The notes under the pieces: model-generated
Databases searched by the model: none
The model's input: the letters and a program-made list of their open reading frames with translations, nothing else
What the model was told of the DNA's origin: nothing
Position numbers and translations under genes: made by a program
Shown here: in pieces, positions 19,358-26,285 of the stretch
Layout: every line of letters begins with the position of its first letter
Numbering within the stretch: the first letter of the stretch is position 1
Origin: Ancylobacter amanitiformis
Lineage (GTDB): Bacteria; Pseudomonadota; Alphaproteobacteria; Rhizobiales; Xanthobacteraceae
Reading direction: 5' to 3'
Length of the DNA stretch: 64,000 nt
Assembly: GCF_030814815.1 (NCBI RefSeq)
Contig: NZ_JAUSVR010000007.1
Location: 62,001-126,000, forward strand

Positions 19358-20518
19358 ATGACCGCTCTCGACTATGATGTTGCCGTGATCGGCCTGGGTG
19401 CCATGGGCAGCGCGGCGCTGGCGCATCTTTCGGCACGCGGGCAGCGGGTGCTCGGGCTTGAGGCATATTCGCCGGCTCATGGTCTAAGCTCCTCGCACGG
19501 CGACAGCCGTATCATCCGGCTCGGCTATTTCGAGGATCCGAGCTACGTGCCGCTGCTGCGCCGCGCCTATGCGAACTGGCGGGCGCTGGAGCGGGACACC
19601 GGGCAGGACGTGCTCACCATTACCGGCGTGCTGCAGATCGGCCGGCCGGACAGCCCCATCGTCTCCGGCACGCTGGCCTCCTGCCGCGCCTATGATCTTG
19701 ACCACGAGGTACTGGATCCCGCGGACATGGCCCGGCGCTATCCGGCTTTCGCGCTCGATGCCGACGAGATCGCCGTATTCGAGACGCAGGGCGGATTCGT
19801 GCGGCCGGAAGCGGCGGTCGCGGCCTGTCTCGACCTTGCCCGGCGCCACGGCGCGCATATCCGCATGCCGGCCCGCGTCACCGCCATCGCCCCCGACGAT
19901 GGCGGTGTGACCCTTCATGTCGGCGAGGAGCGCGTAAGGGTGGGCCGCGTGGTGGCGGCGACGGGGCCGTGGATCGGTCAGCTTGTGCCGGCGCTGGCGG
20001 CGCTGGCGAGCCCGATCCGCCAGGTGGTGGCGTGGTACGCGCCGAAGGATGAGGCGGCCACCGCGCTCGGCGCCCTGCCGGTGTTTCTGCGCGATGCCGG
20101 CCCGGTCGGCTCCTTCTTCGGTTTTCCGCAGCTCGACGGCGCGGGGGTGAAGGTGGGCAAGCACGCGCATTTCCGCGAGCCGATCAAAGATCCCGACGCG
20201 CCGAACCCGCCGGTAAACGAGGCCGATACGGCGCTGCTGGACGATTTCATTGCCCGCCGCCTGCCGCTGGCGGCGGGGCGGCGCCTCGCGGCCGCCACCT
20301 GTCGCTACACGATGCTGCCCGGCGAGGATTTCCTGCTGGATACGCTGCCCGGCGTGCCCAATGTCGTGGTCGCCTCGCCCTGTTCGGGCCATGGCTACAA
20401 GTTTGCCAGCGTGGTGGGGGAAATCCTCGCCGATCTCGCACAGCATGGGGAGACGGCGCTGCCGATCGCGGCATTCAGCTTCGCGGCGCTGGAGGCCAAG
20501 GTGGCCGCGACGGCCTGA
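19358..20518 (+). CDS. N-methyl-amino-acid oxidase (MTOX/sarcosine oxidase-like)
   Basis: 386 residues, FAD-dependent. N-terminal GLGAMGSAALAHLSARG binds FAD; SSHGDSRIIRLGYFEDP is the characteristic SolA/MSOX segment; a cysteine in AATCRYTM is at the covalent-flavin position and CSGHGYKF follows. The family demethylates N-methyltryptophan, sarcosine and similar compounds. ATG 19358 has GAGGA seven bases upstream. Divergent from the dpp-like importer, suggesting transport and oxidation of the same substrate. It is the second enzyme of this family in the island (other at 8695). Confidence 0.88.
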   Translation: MTALDYDVAVIGLGAMGSAALAHLSARGQRVLGLEAYSPAHGLSSSHGDSRIIRLGYFEDPSYVPLLRRAYANWRALERDTGQDVLTITGVLQIGRPDSPIVSGTLASCRAYDLDHEVLDPADMARRYPAFALDADEIAVFETQGGFVRPEAAVAACLDLARRHGAHIRMPARVTAIAPDDGGVTLHVGEERVRVGRVVAATGPWIGQLVPALAALASPIRQVVAWYAPKDEAATALGALPVFLRDAGPVGSFFGFPQLDGAGVKVGKHAHFREPIKDPDAPNPPVNEADTALLDDFIARRLPLAAGRRLAAATCRYTMLPGEDFLLDTLPGVPNVVVASPCSGHGYKFASVVGEILADLAQHGETALPIAAFSFAALEAKVAATA

Positions 20519-20560
20519 TGGCGGCACGTTCCCGCGCCGGCCGCCTCTCTTCGGGGCACC

Positions 20561-21814
20561 TCACTTCAGGGCGTCGAGATGGGCGCGGATATGGGCGGCT
20601 TCCGCGGCGGTGGTGGCGAGGCGGATCGCCGCCATGAAACCTTCGCGCGCCTCGGCGGTTCGGCCGAGCTGCATCAGCAGCGCGCCGCGCAGGCCGTGAT
20701 AGTGGAAATAGCCCGACAGCTTGTCGCCGAGCGGCTCCACCAGCGCCAGCGCCGCCTCCGGGCCGCGCAACTTGGAGACCGCCACCGCCCGGTTGAGCGT
20801 GACGACCGGGGAGGGCTGCATGATTTCGAGCGTGCCATAAAGCAGGTCGATCTCGCCCCAGTCGGTCGCTTCGGGCGTCGGCGCGCGGGCATGCAGCGCG
20901 GCGATGGCGGCCTGCACCTGATAGGGGCCGGGTCGCCGGTGGCGCAGTGCCTTGTCGAGCAGGGCCAGCCCTTCCGCGATCATCGCCCGGTTCCAGAGCC
21001 GGCGGTCCTGCCGGTCGAGCAGGATCACCGCGCCGGCGGCATCGAAGCGGGCGCGGGCGCGGGCGTGCTGCAGCAGCATCAGGGCGGCGAGGCCCATGAT
21101 TTCGGGCTCGGCGGCAAACAGGCGCAACAGCAGCCGCGCGAGGCGGATCGCCTCCTCGCAGAGCGGCTCGCGGGCGGCGGATGTGTCGCCGGCGGCGGAA
21201 TATCCCTCGTTGAAGACGAGATAGAGCATCGCCGCCACCCCGCCCAGACGCTGCGCCCGCTCCACCGCGCCCGGCGCCTCGAAGGGCACGTCCGCGCGCG
21301 CCACGCGGGCCTTGGCCCGGGTGATGCGCTGCTCCATCGCCGCCTCGCTGACGAGAAAGGCGCGGGCGATCTGCCGCACGGAGAGCCCGGAGACGATGCG
21401 CAGCGCCAGCGCGATCTGCTGCGCCGCCGGCAGGTCCGGGTGGCAGCAGATGAACAGGAGGCGCAGCACGTCGTCGCGATACTGCGCGCCATCCAGCCGC
21501 TCGACGATCTCCGCCTCGGCGTCGCCGGTATCGGAGAGCGCGTCGGACAGCACGTCCTCGGGCGGCAACTCGGCCTGCCGCGCCCGGCGCCGCACCGTAT
21601 CGAGCGCGATGTTGCGGCCGACAAAGATCAGCCAGGCGGCGGCATCGCGCGGCGGGCCGTTTTCCGGCCAGGTCCTGAGCGCGCGGAGACTGGCCTCCTG
21701 AAAGGCCTCCTCCGCCAGGTCGAGATCGCGGAAATGGCGCAGCAGCGCGGCGATCGCCTGCGGGCGCGCCGCCGTGAGGGTCGCTCCGATCCGGCGCGCC
21801 TCCTCCTGCTTCAT
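20561..21814 (-). CDS. ECF sigma factor with C-terminal TPR-like extension (ECF42 type)
   Basis: 417 residues. Sigma region 2 is at about residues 10-80 (LAEEAFQEASLRALRTWP, AAAWLIFVGRNIALDTVRRR) and region 4 at about 125-180 (GLSVRQIARAFLVSEAAMEQRITRAKARV). Residues 190-417 are the helical, TPR-like extension (YLVFNEGYSA, LLYGTLEIMQPSPVVTLNRAVA) that defines ECF42. These sigma factors have no anti-sigma gene and are encoded with DGPF/YCII proteins, as here (ATGA overlap). The signal and regulon are unknown. Confidence 0.92.
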   Translation of the reverse strand: MKQEEARRIGATLTAARPQAIAALLRHFRDLDLAEEAFQEASLRALRTWPENGPPRDAAAWLIFVGRNIALDTVRRRARQAELPPEDVLSDALSDTGDAEAEIVERLDGAQYRDDVLRLLFICCHPDLPAAQQIALALRIVSGLSVRQIARAFLVSEAAMEQRITRAKARVARADVPFEAPGAVERAQRLGGVAAMLYLVFNEGYSAAGDTSAAREPLCEEAIRLARLLLRLFAAEPEIMGLAALMLLQHARARARFDAAGAVILLDRQDRRLWNRAMIAEGLALLDKALRHRRPGPYQVQAAIAALHARAPTPEATDWGEIDLLYGTLEIMQPSPVVTLNRAVAVSKLRGPEAALALVEPLGDKLSGYFHYHGLRGALLMQLGRTAEAREGFMAAIRLATTAAEAAHIRAHLDALK

Positions 21815-22182
21815 CCCCGCGCGCCACCGTCGAGGAAAAGGCTGGTGGGGCGCACCTCATAGGCGCCGCCGGGATTGGCCACGCCAAGCTCGCGGGCAAT
21901 GGCCAGCGCTTCCTGCAGATCCACGCAATCCAGCAGATAGAAGCCGAGCAACTGCTCCTTGGTCTCGGCGAAGGGGCCGTCGAGCACCAGCGGCGGATCC
22001 TGGTCCTTGCGCAGCGTGGTGGCGGCGGTGGTGGGCAGCAGACGCGCCGCCGGGCCGAGCTTGCCCGCCCGGGCCAGCCGCTCGTGCACCACGGCGAGCC
22101 TCTCCATCACCGCGTCGTCCTCCTCCCGCGTCCAGGCGCAGACGACATCCTCCTGATGGTAACAGAGCAGGGCATAGAACAT
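21811..22182 (-). CDS. DGPF/YCII-domain protein
   Basis: 123 residues, single YCII-related domain with the signature DGPFAETKEQLLGFYLLD near residues 68-85. Such proteins form small ferredoxin-like dimers; when paired with ECF42 sigma factors they are proposed to take part in signalling, but no reaction is established. Start is preceded by GGGAG; the stop overlaps the sigma-factor start. Confidence 0.88.
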   Translation of the reverse strand: MFYALLCYHQEDVVCAWTREEDDAVMERLAVVHERLARAGKLGPAARLLPTTAATTLRKDQDPPLVLDGPFAETKEQLLGFYLLDCVDLQEALAIARELGVANPGGAYEVRPTSLFLDGGARG

Positions 22183-22230
22183 GCGGGTCTCCCACGATGC
22201 GAGGGCCGGATGATGCCGGCGAGAGGCGCG

Positions 22231-22539
22231 TCAGCCGCCGCTGATCGCGGTGATGATGAAGACGTCGGCACCGGGTGCCAGCGCCGTGGAGAGGCGAGCG
22301 CGCCGGCCGTCGACGAACACGTTGACATGGCGACGGATGGCCGGTGTCTCGTCGCAGATGCGCGCGCGCATGCCGGGCCAGCGCCGGTCCAGCGCCGCCA
22401 CCATCTCCGCCACGCTGCCGGCCTGAAGCGCGACGCGCGGCTCGGCATCGGGAAACAGCACGACGAGATGGGGCGGCAGGCGCACCAGCACGGGCGCCCG
22501 CGCCTCGCCCGGCGTCTGCGACGGTGCGTCCTCGCCCAT
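22231..22539 (-). CDS. MoaD/ThiS-family ubiquitin-like protein ending in Gly-Gly
   Basis: 102 residues. The beta-grasp pattern (VLVRLPPHLVVLFP, then a helix AEMVAALDRRWPGM, IRRHVNVFVDG) and the C-terminal Ser-Gly-Gly fit the MoaD/ThiS sulfur-carrier family, whose Gly-Gly tail is adenylated and thiocarboxylated. No E1-like adenylase, MoaE or ThiG gene is nearby. ATG 22539 has GGAGG eight bases upstream; a GTG at 22569 would overlap the previous gene. Genes for BNR propellers are often found next to such MoaD-like genes, but the function is uncharacterised. Confidence 0.8.
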   Translation of the reverse strand: MGEDAPSQTPGEARAPVLVRLPPHLVVLFPDAEPRVALQAGSVAEMVAALDRRWPGMRARICDETPAIRRHVNVFVDGRRARLSTALAPGADVFIITAISGG

Positions 22540-22565
22540 GCCGTGCGCCTCCGTTGCCGGTATCC

Positions 22566-23651
22566 TCACCGCTCCATCACCAGCGTCTCGACCGAGGTGA
22601 TGGTCGGCAGATAGGGGGCGAGGCAGGTCCATGTGTCGCCTTCGTCGATGCTGCCATAGAGGGCGCCGGCATTGGTGCCGAAATACACTCCGGCCGGCTC
22701 CAGCGTGTCCGTCGCCATCGCCTGACGCAGCACGTTGAAGTAAGCGTCGCCCTGCGGCAAGCCAGCGCGCCCCGCCTGCCAGTTCGCCCCGCCGTCGCGG
22801 GTGCGCCACACCGCCGTGTTGCCCCCGGGCATGAAGCGGCCCTTGATGTCGCCGTTCAGCGGGATGAGGAAGAGGCTGTCGGGATCGCGCGGATGGACAG
22901 CGGCGGGAAAGCCGAAGGACGAGGGCAGCCCCTGTTCGATGCTCTCCCAGCGCCTGCCGCCATCGTCGGAGCGGTACATGCCGCAATGGTTCTGCTGGTA
23001 GAGCCGCGCGCCGCCGCCCGGCGCCCGCACGAGGCAATGCACGCATTGGCCGAATTCGGGATAATTCTGCCCCTCGGGCAGGAAGTCGGCGCGCGTGCCA
23101 CGGTTGCGCGGCTCCCAGCTGGCGCCGCCATCCTCGGTGGCGAACACCCCGGCGGCCGAGATGCCGACCCAGATCTTGTTCGTGTCGGCGGGGTCGAGCA
23201 CCAGCGAGTGGAGGATCAGCCCGGCGCCGCCGGGATTCCATTCCGGCCGCGTCGGGTGGTTCTGCAAGCCCTCGACATGGCTCCAGCTCTCGCCGCCATC
23301 CGCGCTCACGAACAGCCCGGCCGGCTCGACGCCGGCGTAAAGCCGGCCATCCGCGCCGACGGCGAGGCTCCAGACCGCCTTGACCGGCGTTTGCCCGGCC
23401 TCGAACGCGAGGCCCTCGCTCGAATGGGTCCACGAGGCGCCGAAATCGGTCGATTTCCACACCGCCGGGCCGAACCATTCATTGCCGCCGCCGGCATAGA
23501 GCGTGCCGCTGGCCGGATCGGCGACCACGTGATGGGTCGGCCAGGTCTCGCAGAACGGACCGCGCAGCGTCCAGTCGCGGCGTGCGCCGTCGCTTTCGAG
23601 GATGAAGGCCCCCTTGCGGGTGCCGACGAGGATGAAGACCTGCTGCGCCAT
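22566..23651 (-). CDS. BNR/sialidase-like beta-propeller protein
   Basis: 361 residues, no signal peptide. Repeated Asp-box (S-x-D-x-G-x-x-W) motifs are visible: STDFGASW, SADGGESW, TEDGGASW, SDDGGRRW, TRDGGANW and SIDEGDTW, spaced about 45-60 residues, indicating a six- or seven-bladed propeller. Similar proteins are annotated as exo-alpha-sialidase or YCF48-like, but the catalytic sialidase residues are not evident, so enzymatic activity is doubtful. GGAGG precedes the ATG. Only 12 bases follow the VOC gene and 26 precede the MoaD-like gene, so they share a transcript. Confidence 0.85.
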   Translation of the reverse strand: MAQQVFILVGTRKGAFILESDGARRDWTLRGPFCETWPTHHVVADPASGTLYAGGGNEWFGPAVWKSTDFGASWTHSSEGLAFEAGQTPVKAVWSLAVGADGRLYAGVEPAGLFVSADGGESWSHVEGLQNHPTRPEWNPGGAGLILHSLVLDPADTNKIWVGISAAGVFATEDGGASWEPRNRGTRADFLPEGQNYPEFGQCVHCLVRAPGGGARLYQQNHCGMYRSDDGGRRWESIEQGLPSSFGFPAAVHPRDPDSLFLIPLNGDIKGRFMPGGNTAVWRTRDGGANWQAGRAGLPQGDAYFNVLRQAMATDTLEPAGVYFGTNAGALYGSIDEGDTWTCLAPYLPTITSVETLVMER

Positions 23652-23663
23652 TCCAGCCTCCCC

Positions 23664-24080
23664 TTATATCGCCGACGCGACGATGAGCCAGGATACGCCA
23701 AAACGGTCGGTCAGCGTGCCGAAGCGGGGCGCGAAGAAGGTCGGCGCCAGGGGCATCGTCACCTCGCCGCCTTCTTTGAGCGCGGCGAATGCCGCCTCGG
23801 CCTCCTCGGGTGACGCGACGGTGAGCGCGAGCGAGATACCGGCGAAGGCGGCGCCGTCGGACTGGCAGCCATCGGAGGCCAGAAGCTCGGCGTCGCCCAC
23901 CGTGAAGCTGGAATGCATGACCTTGTCGCCCCAGTCCTGCGGCATCATGCCGGGCGGGGGCGGATCCGGCGCGTCCTTGAAGCGCATCAGCGTGGTCAGC
24001 CTGGCGCCGATCGCCACCGTGTAGAAGGCGATGGCCTCCTCGGTGCGGCCGTTGAACATCAGATAAGGCTGGACGTTCAT
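23664..24080 (-). CDS. PhnB-like VOC-family protein
   Basis: 138 residues, single glyoxalase/bleomycin-resistance fold of the PhnB/3-demethylubiquinone-like group: MNVQPYLMFNGRTEEAIAFY at the start, then HSSFTVGDAELLASDG and WLIVASAI at the end. The family binds small molecules, often without a metal; function unknown. GGAGGG lies seven bases before the ATG. First gene of the five-gene sigma-factor operon; VOC proteins of this kind commonly accompany ECF42/DGPF loci. Confidence 0.85.
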   Translation of the reverse strand: MNVQPYLMFNGRTEEAIAFYTVAIGARLTTLMRFKDAPDPPPPGMMPQDWGDKVMHSSFTVGDAELLASDGCQSDGAAFAGISLALTVASPEEAEAAFAALKEGGEVTMPLAPTFFAPRFGTLTDRFGVSWLIVASAI

Positions 24081-24244
24081 TGCTTTTCCCTCCCCCTCGG
24101 GCTCCATGGCGCGGCGCGGCCAAGGCAGGCCGGCGCCCGCGACACGAGGACGAACGGGGGAAGGCTAATCCGACATCGCGGCGAGAATTTTTCCCAAACG
24201 GCAGCCGGGCGGTCGGCAGGGCCGGGGGAGGCTCTTGGCGCGGT

Positions 24245-24466
24245 CTACGGCCGGAGCGAGGCGAAGGCGCGCCGGTCGAGCCGCTCCAGTCCGCCGTGCC
24301 GGGCGGCGTTATAGGGCGAGGCCGTGCGCTCGATGACGCCGGCCACTTGACGCGGCAGGTCGGTGGCGAGCTGGACGGCGCGCCAGCTGCCGGCCAGACC
24401 GGCGACGCCGAGTGTCATGCCGAACAGGGCCGCGGAAACGGTCGACAGGGGAGATCCGGGAGACAT
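24245..24466 (-). pseudogene. Possible remnant of a TDT (TehA-like) transporter N-terminus
   Basis: 73 codons from ATG 24466. Residues about 10-45 (ALFGMTLGVAGLAGSWRAV ... LPRQVAGVIE) resemble the first helix and loop of tellurite-resistance/dicarboxylate transporters. The frame then ends, and no continuation with the other nine helices is visible. It may instead be a small single-pass membrane protein. Weak evidence. Confidence 0.3.
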
Positions 24467-24914
24467 CGCGCTACCTCGACAGTTTGATTCGACAGGCGAC
24501 CGCCATGCGGCCCCAATGGACTGGCCGATCGCGCAGCCGGATCCGCCAGCAGGCCCCGCCGGCGCATTCCGGTGCGGAATGGATGGGGTCGTTTTAGATG
24601 CGGCGAAACGAGGGATCTGCCCAATTGGAACGCTGCGCCGCGAGGCGTGTGCTTGCGCAACAGTAACCGGCAAAAACCGTGATGTTCCGAAATGGGCGAG
24701 CCCGTTTCATTGCCCGGGGGTGCGCGTCATCTCGCGCAAGGCGGCGTCGGGCGTGGGCGGATGACGGGGCGGGCGTGGGCACGGGTGCCGCAGAGGCGCC
24801 AGGACTGCGGCGGCCGGTTCGCGCCTCGGTCACGCCCCTGTTGGCGGGCAGTGCCGACGATCTCGACAAATAAGTCTATACATATAAAATGGTGCTGCGC
24901 AGGAGATGGCAGCC
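24467..24914. other. 448-base spacer without a recognised gene
   Basis: Only short unsupported frames. A 7-bp hairpin CATTCCG-GTG-CGGAATG lies at 24565-24581 and could be a terminator, though no clear T-run follows. The last 50 bases become AT-rich and hold the motif at 24869 and a ribosome-binding site for the monooxygenase gene. Confidence 0.5.
24869..24881 (+). promoter_or_regulatory. AT-rich motif AATAAGTCTATAC upstream of monooxygenase gene
   Basis: Ends 33 bases before the chosen start of the monooxygenase. It shares TCTATAC and most flanking bases with the motifs at 19239 and 28714. No matching -35 is evident, which favours an operator. Confidence 0.45.
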
Positions 24915-26285
24915 ATGGGACGTTCGGACAAGTTGAAGCTCGGTACCTTCGTGTACACGTTCGGCTACAACCCGGCCGGCTGGCTGCATCCGGGCAGCGA
25001 CGTGAACGGCGCCAATGATTTCGCTCACCTGCTCAAGGTGGCGCAGATGTCGGAAGCCGCCAAGTTCGATTTTCTGTTCCTCGCGGATTCGCCGGCCGCC
25101 GCCATCGGCGATCCCGAGGCGCTGTGCCGCCTGCCGACCAAGATGAACCGCTTCGAGCCGATGACGCTGCTCTCCGCGCTGGCGGTGGCGACGTCGCGTC
25201 TCGGACTGGTGGCCACCGCCTCCACCTCCTATTACGAGCCGTTCAACCTCGCCCGCATCTTCGCCTCGATCGATCATCTCAGCGGCGGGCGTGCATGCTG
25301 GAATGTCGTCACGTCAGACCATGACGAGACCGGCTACAATTTCAACCGCGAGGGGCTGGACCCGCACGCGCTGCGTTATGAGCGCGGCAAGGAATTCGTC
25401 GATGTGGTGTTCGGGCTGTGGGATTCGTTCGAGCAGGATGCGCTGAAGCTCGATCGTGACAGCGGCGTCTATTACGACAAGGACAAGCTCCATACGCTCA
25501 ACCACAAGGGCAAGCACTTCCAGGTGCGCGGGCCGCTCAACATCGCCGCCACGCCGCAGGGGCGGCCGGTGATCGCCCAGGCCGGCGGATCGGCGGCGGG
25601 CATCGAACTGGCGGCGGAAACCGCCGAGATCGTGTTCTCGCTCGCCTCCAATCTGGAGCGCAGCCAGGCCTTCTACGCCACGCTGAAGGAGCGCATGGCG
25701 AGCTTCGGCCGTGGGCCGGACGAGCTGAAGGTGATGCCCGGCGTGGTCATCAATGTCGGGCGCACCGAATCCGAGGCGCGCGAGAAGGTCGCCTATCTCG
25801 CCGGCAAGTTGCACCCCGATGTCGGCCGGGCGATGCTCGCCGAGTTCCTGGAAGCGGACCTCTCCGGCGTGCCGCTCGACGCCCCGTTCCCGAAGGACCG
25901 TCTGCCGTCGGCGCCCAAGGGCTCCAAGGCGCTGTTCGACGAACTGACCGATTTCGTCATGAAGGGCCACACGGTGGGTGAACTGATCCACCTGTTCAGC
26001 GAGAAGCACACCGGCAACGGCATCACCGGCACGCCGGCCATGGTCGCCGACTTCATGGAGGAATGGTTCCAGACCCGCGCGGCGGACGGCTTCATCGTGA
26101 TGTGCCCGACCCTGCCGGCGGCGCTGGAGGATTTCACCGAGCTGGTCGTGCCCGAACTGCGCCGGCGCGGCCTGTTCCGCGAGGAATACGAGGGCACCAC
26201 GCTGCGGGCCAGCCTCGGCCTGCCGATGCCGGAAAACCGCTACGCCCGCGCGCGGCGGCAGGCCGGCCTTGCCGGCGGCGCCTGA
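24915..26285 (+). CDS. FMNH2-dependent monooxygenase, NtaA/SnaA/DszA family
   Basis: 456 residues, bacterial-luciferase-like TIM barrel. Family segments seen are KLGTFVYTFG, FDFLFLADS, RLGLVATASTSYYEPFNLAR, DHLSGGRACWNVVTS, RYERGKEFVDVV and GRPVIAQAGGS. These enzymes use reduced FMN from a separate reductase to oxygenate nitrilotriacetate, alkyl sulfur compounds or S-substituted cysteines. GGAG lies nine bases before ATG 24915; the ATG at 24906 abuts that site and is less likely. The following genes encode a polar amino-acid ABC importer, so its substrate is probably an amino-acid-like compound. No flavin reductase gene is visible nearby. Confidence 0.9.
   Translation: MGRSDKLKLGTFVYTFGYNPAGWLHPGSDVNGANDFAHLLKVAQMSEAAKFDFLFLADSPAAAIGDPEALCRLPTKMNRFEPMTLLSALAVATSRLGLVATASTSYYEPFNLARIFASIDHLSGGRACWNVVTSDHDETGYNFNREGLDPHALRYERGKEFVDVVFGLWDSFEQDALKLDRDSGVYYDKDKLHTLNHKGKHFQVRGPLNIAATPQGRPVIAQAGGSAAGIELAAETAEIVFSLASNLERSQAFYATLKERMASFGRGPDELKVMPGVVINVGRTESEAREKVAYLAGKLHPDVGRAMLAEFLEADLSGVPLDAPFPKDRLPSAPKGSKALFDELTDFVMKGHTVGELIHLFSEKHTGNGITGTPAMVADFMEEWFQTRAADGFIVMCPTLPAALEDFTELVVPELRRRGLFREEYEGTTLRASLGLPMPENRYARARRQAGLAGGA

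Follow-up and report, generated by a model that had tools for sequence, protein, structure and literature searches.

The window analysed here is a 64,000-nucleotide stretch of the Ancylobacter amanitiformis genome (assembly GCF_030814815.1, contig NZ_JAUSVR010000007.1, positions 62,001 to 126,000), and it carries genes for a sigma factor of the extracytoplasmic function (ECF) group ECF42, a beta-propeller and a small ubiquitin-like protein (Ubl). Five genes follow one another on the minus strand. In transcription order they encode a VOC family protein with a PhnB/YjdN-like glyoxalase fold (23664..24080), a BNR beta-propeller of 361 amino acids (22566..23651), the Ubl, which is a ThiS/MoaD/CysO-like beta-grasp protein of 102 amino acids with the C-terminus TAISGG (22231..22539, its start codon at 22539 picked by eye), a DGPF/YCII-domain protein of 123 amino acids (21811..22182) and, last, the ECF42-type sigma factor of 417 amino acids with a DUF6596 C-terminal extension (20561..21814). 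The gaps are 12 bases (VOC-BNR), 26 bases (BNR-Ubl), 48 bases (Ubl-DGPF) and -4 bases (DGPF-ECF), the sigma gene overlapping the DGPF stop by 4 bases. An earlier note, made from the sequence alone, had described five minus-strand genes spaced by -4 to 48 bases as one apparent operon, and every gene and gap was confirmed. The layout is that of one apparent operon, the genes of which are presumably co-transcribed.

Pfam assigned each protein to a family. The sigma factor matched PF20239 (DUF6596, 116.7 bits) together with PF08281 (37.6 bits) and PF04542 (34.4 bits), covering sigma regions 2 and 4, which makes it of the ECF42 type; it is the sole PF20239 match in the host genome (4.84 Mb in 44 contigs). 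No TPR family was listed for it by Pfam at E 0.01, and in a P. aeruginosa relative TPR_2 fell below the cut-off. The DGPF protein matched YCII (68.7 bits), the Ubl ThiS (25.6 bits, cut-off 22.5), the propeller BNR (34.3 bits) and Sortilin-Vps10 (42.7 bits), and the VOC protein 3-dmu-9_3-mt (PF06983, 51.4 bits) and Glyoxalase (PF00903, 38 bits), both over the cut-off. Two terminator-like sites were found at 20300-24500 (mean of shuffles 1.3), giving no evidence for an internal stop, and a consensus scan of the same interval found no sigma-70-like promoter. Beyond the operon, a plus-strand open reading frame (ORF) at 24906-26285 resembles, by eye, a flavin-dependent luciferase-like monooxygenase and is followed by amino-acid-type ABC permeases.

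A putative ECF42-type promoter, TGTCGG-N17-CGTC, lies on the minus strand before the VOC gene (24149..24175), its first base 95 nucleotides 5′ of the start codon. It is the single such site in the operon region, and where the earlier note had looked to separate promoters as evidence against one transcript, no internal TGTCGG-N17-CGTC site was found within the operon. Its bases and spacer are identical to those of the Sinorhizobium meliloti SMb20475 promoter, listed as a target of RpoE10 in Table 1 of the available part of PMC6180224; according to the same source, overexpression of RpoE10, itself an ECF42 protein, raised two operons, including glyoxalase-domain genes. The window holds four matches to the looser pattern TGTCG..CGTC, not above shuffles. 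Because looser patterns are not rare, the case for the promoter is built on where the site lies and on its conservation, and rarity plays no part in it.

For conservation, 286 relatives of the propeller were collected in a scan of 84,980 species genomes, and the counts that follow refer to the best 80 of the 286, close relatives only. The Ubl gene comes after the propeller gene in 78 of the 80; the exceptions are one locus at a contig end (L022) and one with no such gene (L070). A Gly-Gly C-terminus is present in 75 of the 78 Ubls, the others being cut by a contig end (L023), running past the domain in frame (L042) or ending in Gly-Asp (L073). Only 19 of the 80 pairs have a window-type ECF42 gene beside them, the ECF42 gene at L044 being of a more distant type. 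At 18 of these 19 loci the promoter stands within 250 bp upstream; its position before VOC recurs in L002-L018, and L019 has one mismatch in the ten bases. The site also stands within 250 bp upstream at four of the five VOC-first loci without an adjacent window-type ECF42 gene, and it precedes 17 of the 56 operons that begin with the BNR gene, none of which has one adjacent. In the control, regions upstream of other ORFs at the same loci, the site occurred in 4 of 1296 windows. The spacer was specific: on the forward strand of the BNR-first set, spacers 12-16 and 18-22 gave no matches and spacers 11 and 23 a single match apiece; on the reverse strand there was one match overall, at spacer 21. 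Among more distant members, TGTCGG-N17-CGTC lies upstream of the propeller in L241 and TGTCGA-N17-CGTC in L242 and L218.

PF20239 genes were sought in the 62 genomes behind loci L019-L081 (L053 excepted), and 60 loci were read, some paralogues lying outside this set. Among 34 ECF42 loci near the window's sigma factor (score at least 545), 28 carried TGTCGG-N17-CGTC before their DGPF-sigma genes; among 24 distant loci none did, 13 of them having TGTCGA variants, and two of the 60 were in between. The near subtype was held by 20 of 21 genomes bearing the promoter before the propeller versus 14 of 37 others (Fisher 1.5e-5, kinship ignored), with in-between genes counted as near and L020, L044, L053 and L060 left out; the sole promoter-bearing genome without it is a metagenome-assembled genome (L033). 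On the BNR tree the promoter label needs 5 to 9 changes, depending on the rows counted. These comparisons suggest that a propeller preceded by the promoter tends to share its genome with one ECF42 subtype, the DGPF-ECF42 genes of which usually have the same promoter in front of them.

A second TGTCGG-N17-CGTC site, on the opposite strand upstream of VOC, was found at 8 of the 19 loci with an adjacent window-type ECF42 gene, and exactly those 8 (L006, L008, L010, L012, L014, L015, L017 and L018) have a divergent AHSA1-type (SRPBCC) gene there. The divergent protein of L014, the one member tested, matched Pfam AHSA1 with 100.9 bits, and as a query against the 80 named loci it retrieved those 8 and one weak match placed elsewhere. 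If the site is a working promoter, an opposite-strand copy should accompany a gene that it can transcribe, as observed here, and the divergent AHSA1-type gene is likely a further ECF42 target. The window's own lineage has no AHSA1-type gene upstream of VOC.

At 18 of the 80 named loci (L042, L071 and L046 among them) a divergent MarR-family gene lies upstream instead, within about 570 bases of the first gene (Pfam MarR 29.2 bits in the one member tested). MarR and promoter never occurred together at a locus, MarR being found in 0 of 21 promoter-bearing genomes versus 17 of 37 others (p 1.5e-4, kinship ignored). About 20-22 of the 80 loci have neither; upstream ORFs were listed for 21 of 22 loci of this type, none was found for L075, and at L044 the ORF is an ECF42 gene by eye. 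This is most simply read as one output unit that different regulators have captured. A search for other conserved neighbours by ORF clustering returned mostly frame-shadow ORFs in GC-rich DNA and was set aside, one of its clusters being MarR.

Within the window's genus, the propeller was found in 24 of 30 genomes (the window's own and 23 of 29 others), and in all 24 (L082-L104 and L106) the VOC, BNR, Ubl, DGPF and ECF genes stand together. Five of the 30 genomes are without both the propeller and PF20239, and one (G017) has PF20239 and no propeller. The whole set being kept in every propeller-bearing genome of the genus, we dismiss a chance grouping. The earlier note had taken loss of the MoaD/BNR genes from beside ECF42 in relatives as the observation that would speak against it, and in the genus these genes are kept beside ECF42 in all but one of the genomes with PF20239.

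Other gene orders occur as well. They run DGPF-ECF-VOC-BNR-Ubl in a Chthonobacter (L060), two DGPF genes, a distant ECF42 gene and then BNR-Ubl in a Mesorhizobium (L044), DGPF-DGPF-ECF-VOC-Ubl-BNR with a distant propeller type in another genus of the window's family (L278), and DGPF-ECF-Ubl-BNR with VOC facing in L262; in L060 and L278 the stretch that separates the sigma gene from VOC contains a TGTCGG-N17-CGTC site. A Pseudomonas aeruginosa plasmid (L221, 1-6054) carries an ECF42-type sigma factor, MFS, VOC and YciI genes, a divergent Ubl(MoaD/ThiS)-BNR pair and YbaK. Here TGTCGA-N17-CGAC precedes the YciI gene, and the Ubl-BNR side has no TGTCGG-N17-CGTC site. If PmpM is PA1361 of PAO1, as we assume, this stretch would correspond to about PA1351-PA1361.

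In a sample of 398 genomes of the phylum, the propeller (E 1e-20) was found in 28, PF20239 in 91 and both in 17; PF20239 was present in 17 of 28 propeller genomes versus 74 of 370 without one (p 8e-6, with genome size and kinship left uncorrected). Most of the 28 propeller loci lack a TGTCGG-N17-CGTC-like site upstream. A Gly-Gly Ubl adjoins the propeller at 17 of the 28, and in the named plasmid loci of Rhodobacterales no MoaD is annotated next to it. A link to ergothioneine was considered and rejected as a single case: the propeller adjoins egtB/egtD in Rhodobacter sp. CZR27 (L216) and not in Fuscovulum or Marivivens. Of the 17 genomes carrying both genes, only three place them no more than 20 kb apart, and two of the three belong to the window's genus, a result to be expected if this were an accidental neighbourhood within one genus and the propeller-Ubl pair and ECF42 were functionally unlinked. 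That explanation is highly improbable in view of the spacer-specific promoter before unlinked operons, the opposite-strand sites found exactly at the divergent AHSA1 genes, the subtype match, the recurrence of the linkage with altered order, and the co-occurrence of the two genes. In support of the earlier note, ECF42 and the propeller-Ubl pair are repeatedly found linked; outside the genus, physical linkage is the exception.

The VOC protein and the propeller-Ubl pair look like ECF42 output because of the promoter before unlinked operons, the subtype match and the exchange with MarR, and from these comparisons the pair is probably a regulated output of ECF42 and not its sensor. The sensing part is likely to consist of the DGPF protein and the C-terminal extension of the sigma factor. 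The opposite direction, which the earlier note had raised as a possibility, places sensing or modification ahead of the sigma factor. The pair would then sense the signal, either because the Ubl modifies the sigma factor or the DGPF protein or because the C-terminal extension is bound by the propeller. The common operon in each of the 24 genus genomes that carry the propeller and an ECF42 linkage that recurs in other gene orders would fit such a role. However, a propeller of this type is absent from 74 of the 91 PF20239 genomes in the sample, the unlinked pairs often bear an ECF42-type promoter as targets would, and elsewhere MarR replaces the regulator. An upstream sensor is therefore unlikely, and the direction proposed in the note is probably reversed, although the Ubl or the propeller may feed back on ECF42.

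Among solved structures, the Ubl comes closest to a ThiS/MoaD protein (4n6e_B), 3dwg_C and SAMP1 entries; 4n6e and 3dwg are presumably CysO-type carriers. The host genome encodes one ThiF match that could serve as its E1 (PF00899, 248.3 bits) and three ThiS-family proteins, the Ubl being the third and the other two read as MoaD and as ThiS with ThiG after it, from translations inspected by eye. As a separate observation, a paralogous Gly-Gly carrier occurs at L191-L215 (nearly all of family group f42), and in L191 and L205, by eye, it lies between threonine-synthase-like and cysteine-synthase-like genes, suggesting a CysO-type cysteine route. Alternatively, the Ubl could be a modifier like SAMP or ubiquitin that becomes attached to proteins during stress; the propeller would then be its adaptor or its principal target. 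The Gly-Gly end and the SAMP1 entries among its nearest structures are compatible with such a modifier, as is a weak match to the NCBIfam SAMP1 model (NF041918), which at 32.6 bits stays below the cut-off of 60. Against this, 4n6e_B and 3dwg_C outscore SAMP1, none of the five operon proteins belongs to an E1, E2 or protease family of Pfam, and no Prok-JAB protein in the host genome exceeds the cut-off (best 22.1 bits versus 25), making a modifier rather improbable. A dedicated sulfur carrier serving the propeller is the role we favour for the Ubl; it is tentative and unproven.

The AlphaFold2 model of the propeller is confident (predicted local distance difference test, pLDDT, 89.5; predicted template modelling score, pTM, 0.90), and the nearest solved structure is 3B7F (Reut_B4987, a putative glycosyl hydrolase with BNR repeats; 41% identity, Z 47.8, root-mean-square deviation 2.1 over 350 residues), which is from a more distant subfamily. 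Across 54 near relatives H41, H148, C203, H205, Q219, Q220, N221, H222 and C223 are among the invariant polar residues, as expected of an active or binding site, with which they would fit. No useful residues specific to Ubl-linked propellers emerged from a mixed alignment of 35 rows. The public annotation of relatives is sialidase family or exo-alpha-sialidase, the fold is common to GH74 enzymes (Z ~28), and the NCBIfam model glycosyl_F510_1955 gives a sub-cut-off match (64.9 bits, cut-off 175), all of which could indicate an exo-alpha-sialidase or glycosyl hydrolase with the Ubl as an incidental neighbour. Yet the only Pfam families over the cut-off at E 0.01 are BNR/Asp-box and Sortilin-Vps10, with no sialidase catalytic family listed, 3B7F is itself only putatively named, and 78 of the 80 close loci have a Ubl gene after the propeller gene. 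We consider a sialidase with an incidental Ubl very unlikely.

Taken together, the data make it reasonably probable that the locus is an ECF42-controlled operon with the VOC protein and the propeller-Ubl pair as its output and the Ubl as a sulfur carrier. The ECF42-type promoter before VOC, presumably recognized by the sigma factor, would drive the VOC, propeller, Ubl, DGPF and sigma genes, so that the sigma factor would amplify its own operon. The C-terminal Gly-Gly of the Ubl would be adenylated by the single ThiF/MoeB-type E1 of the genome and then converted to a thiocarboxylate. This thiocarboxylate may be used on or by the propeller, such that a small molecule is made or repaired during what we suppose to be chemical stress, and the VOC protein may help to relieve the same stress. 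A broader proposal is more speculative: ECF42 might control an undescribed sulfur-carrier system in which a dedicated Gly-Gly protein, once charged by the housekeeping MoeB-type E1, would pass sulfur to a propeller enzyme in response to chemical stress, the module being portable between ECF42 and MarR control.

Several observations weigh against this interpretation. The promoter is absent from 39 of the 56 BNR-first loci, and the near ECF42 subtype is present in 14 of the 37 genomes that lack it. A kinship-aware test on the BNR tree had only two independent pairs on well-supported branches, which is too few. The host genome has 15 strict TGTCGG-N17-CGTC sites versus 8 for a reversed control pattern, and a looser TGTCGA-N17-CGAC match lies inside the window's own BNR gene (L224), so single sites prove little. 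In S. meliloti the DGPF-rpoE10 genes did not respond to overexpression of RpoE10 (PMC6180224, in the part available), and autoregulation is therefore not assured. No Ubl was found beside 11 of the 28 phylum-sample propellers, 10 of the 11 belonging to family group f36, and the propeller family can thus do without an adjacent Ubl. In the mixed 35-row alignment with distant members few positions were invariant, and a read-through BNR-Ubl model (pTM 0.76, pLDDT below 50 in the Ubl tail) gave no support for contact between the two proteins.

The consulted part of the review literature describes ECF42 as widely distributed and leaves open with which partner its C-terminal extension works and to which signal it responds. 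A recurrent output, consisting of the VOC protein and the propeller-sulfur-carrier pair with an AHSA1-type gene in some relatives, would offer a testable reading of the ECF42 response in which sensor parts are told apart from effector parts, and would place a conserved, sialidase-annotated propeller family in a sulfur-carrier setting.

Comparison with known carriers sets the Ubl among beta-grasp proteins. It shares the family, the C-terminal Gly-Gly and the top solved matches 4n6e_B and 3dwg_C with the CysO, ThiS and MoaD sulfur carriers, but its partner is a beta-propeller and not CysM, ThiG or MoaE. With SAMP1 it shares profile similarity and the Gly-Gly end, and it differs in staying below the model cut-off and in the lack of a JAB protease over the cut-off in its genome. 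Among ECF42 systems, S. meliloti RpoE10, P. putida ECF-10 and S. venezuelae Sven_0747, as far as the accessible parts of their descriptions show, resemble the window in sigma regions 2 and 4, in DUF6596 and in having a DGPF gene immediately ahead of the sigma gene; the window promoter also matches RpoE10 target promoters, and VOC-type genes are targets there and putative targets here. A propeller-Ubl pair under ECF42 was not reported in the portion of the ECF42 literature searched, and a prior mention elsewhere is possible. The window differs from these systems in that the operon itself includes the VOC, propeller and Ubl genes: its core is an ordinary ECF42-DGPF operon, to which, as far as the searched literature shows, a new output module is attached.

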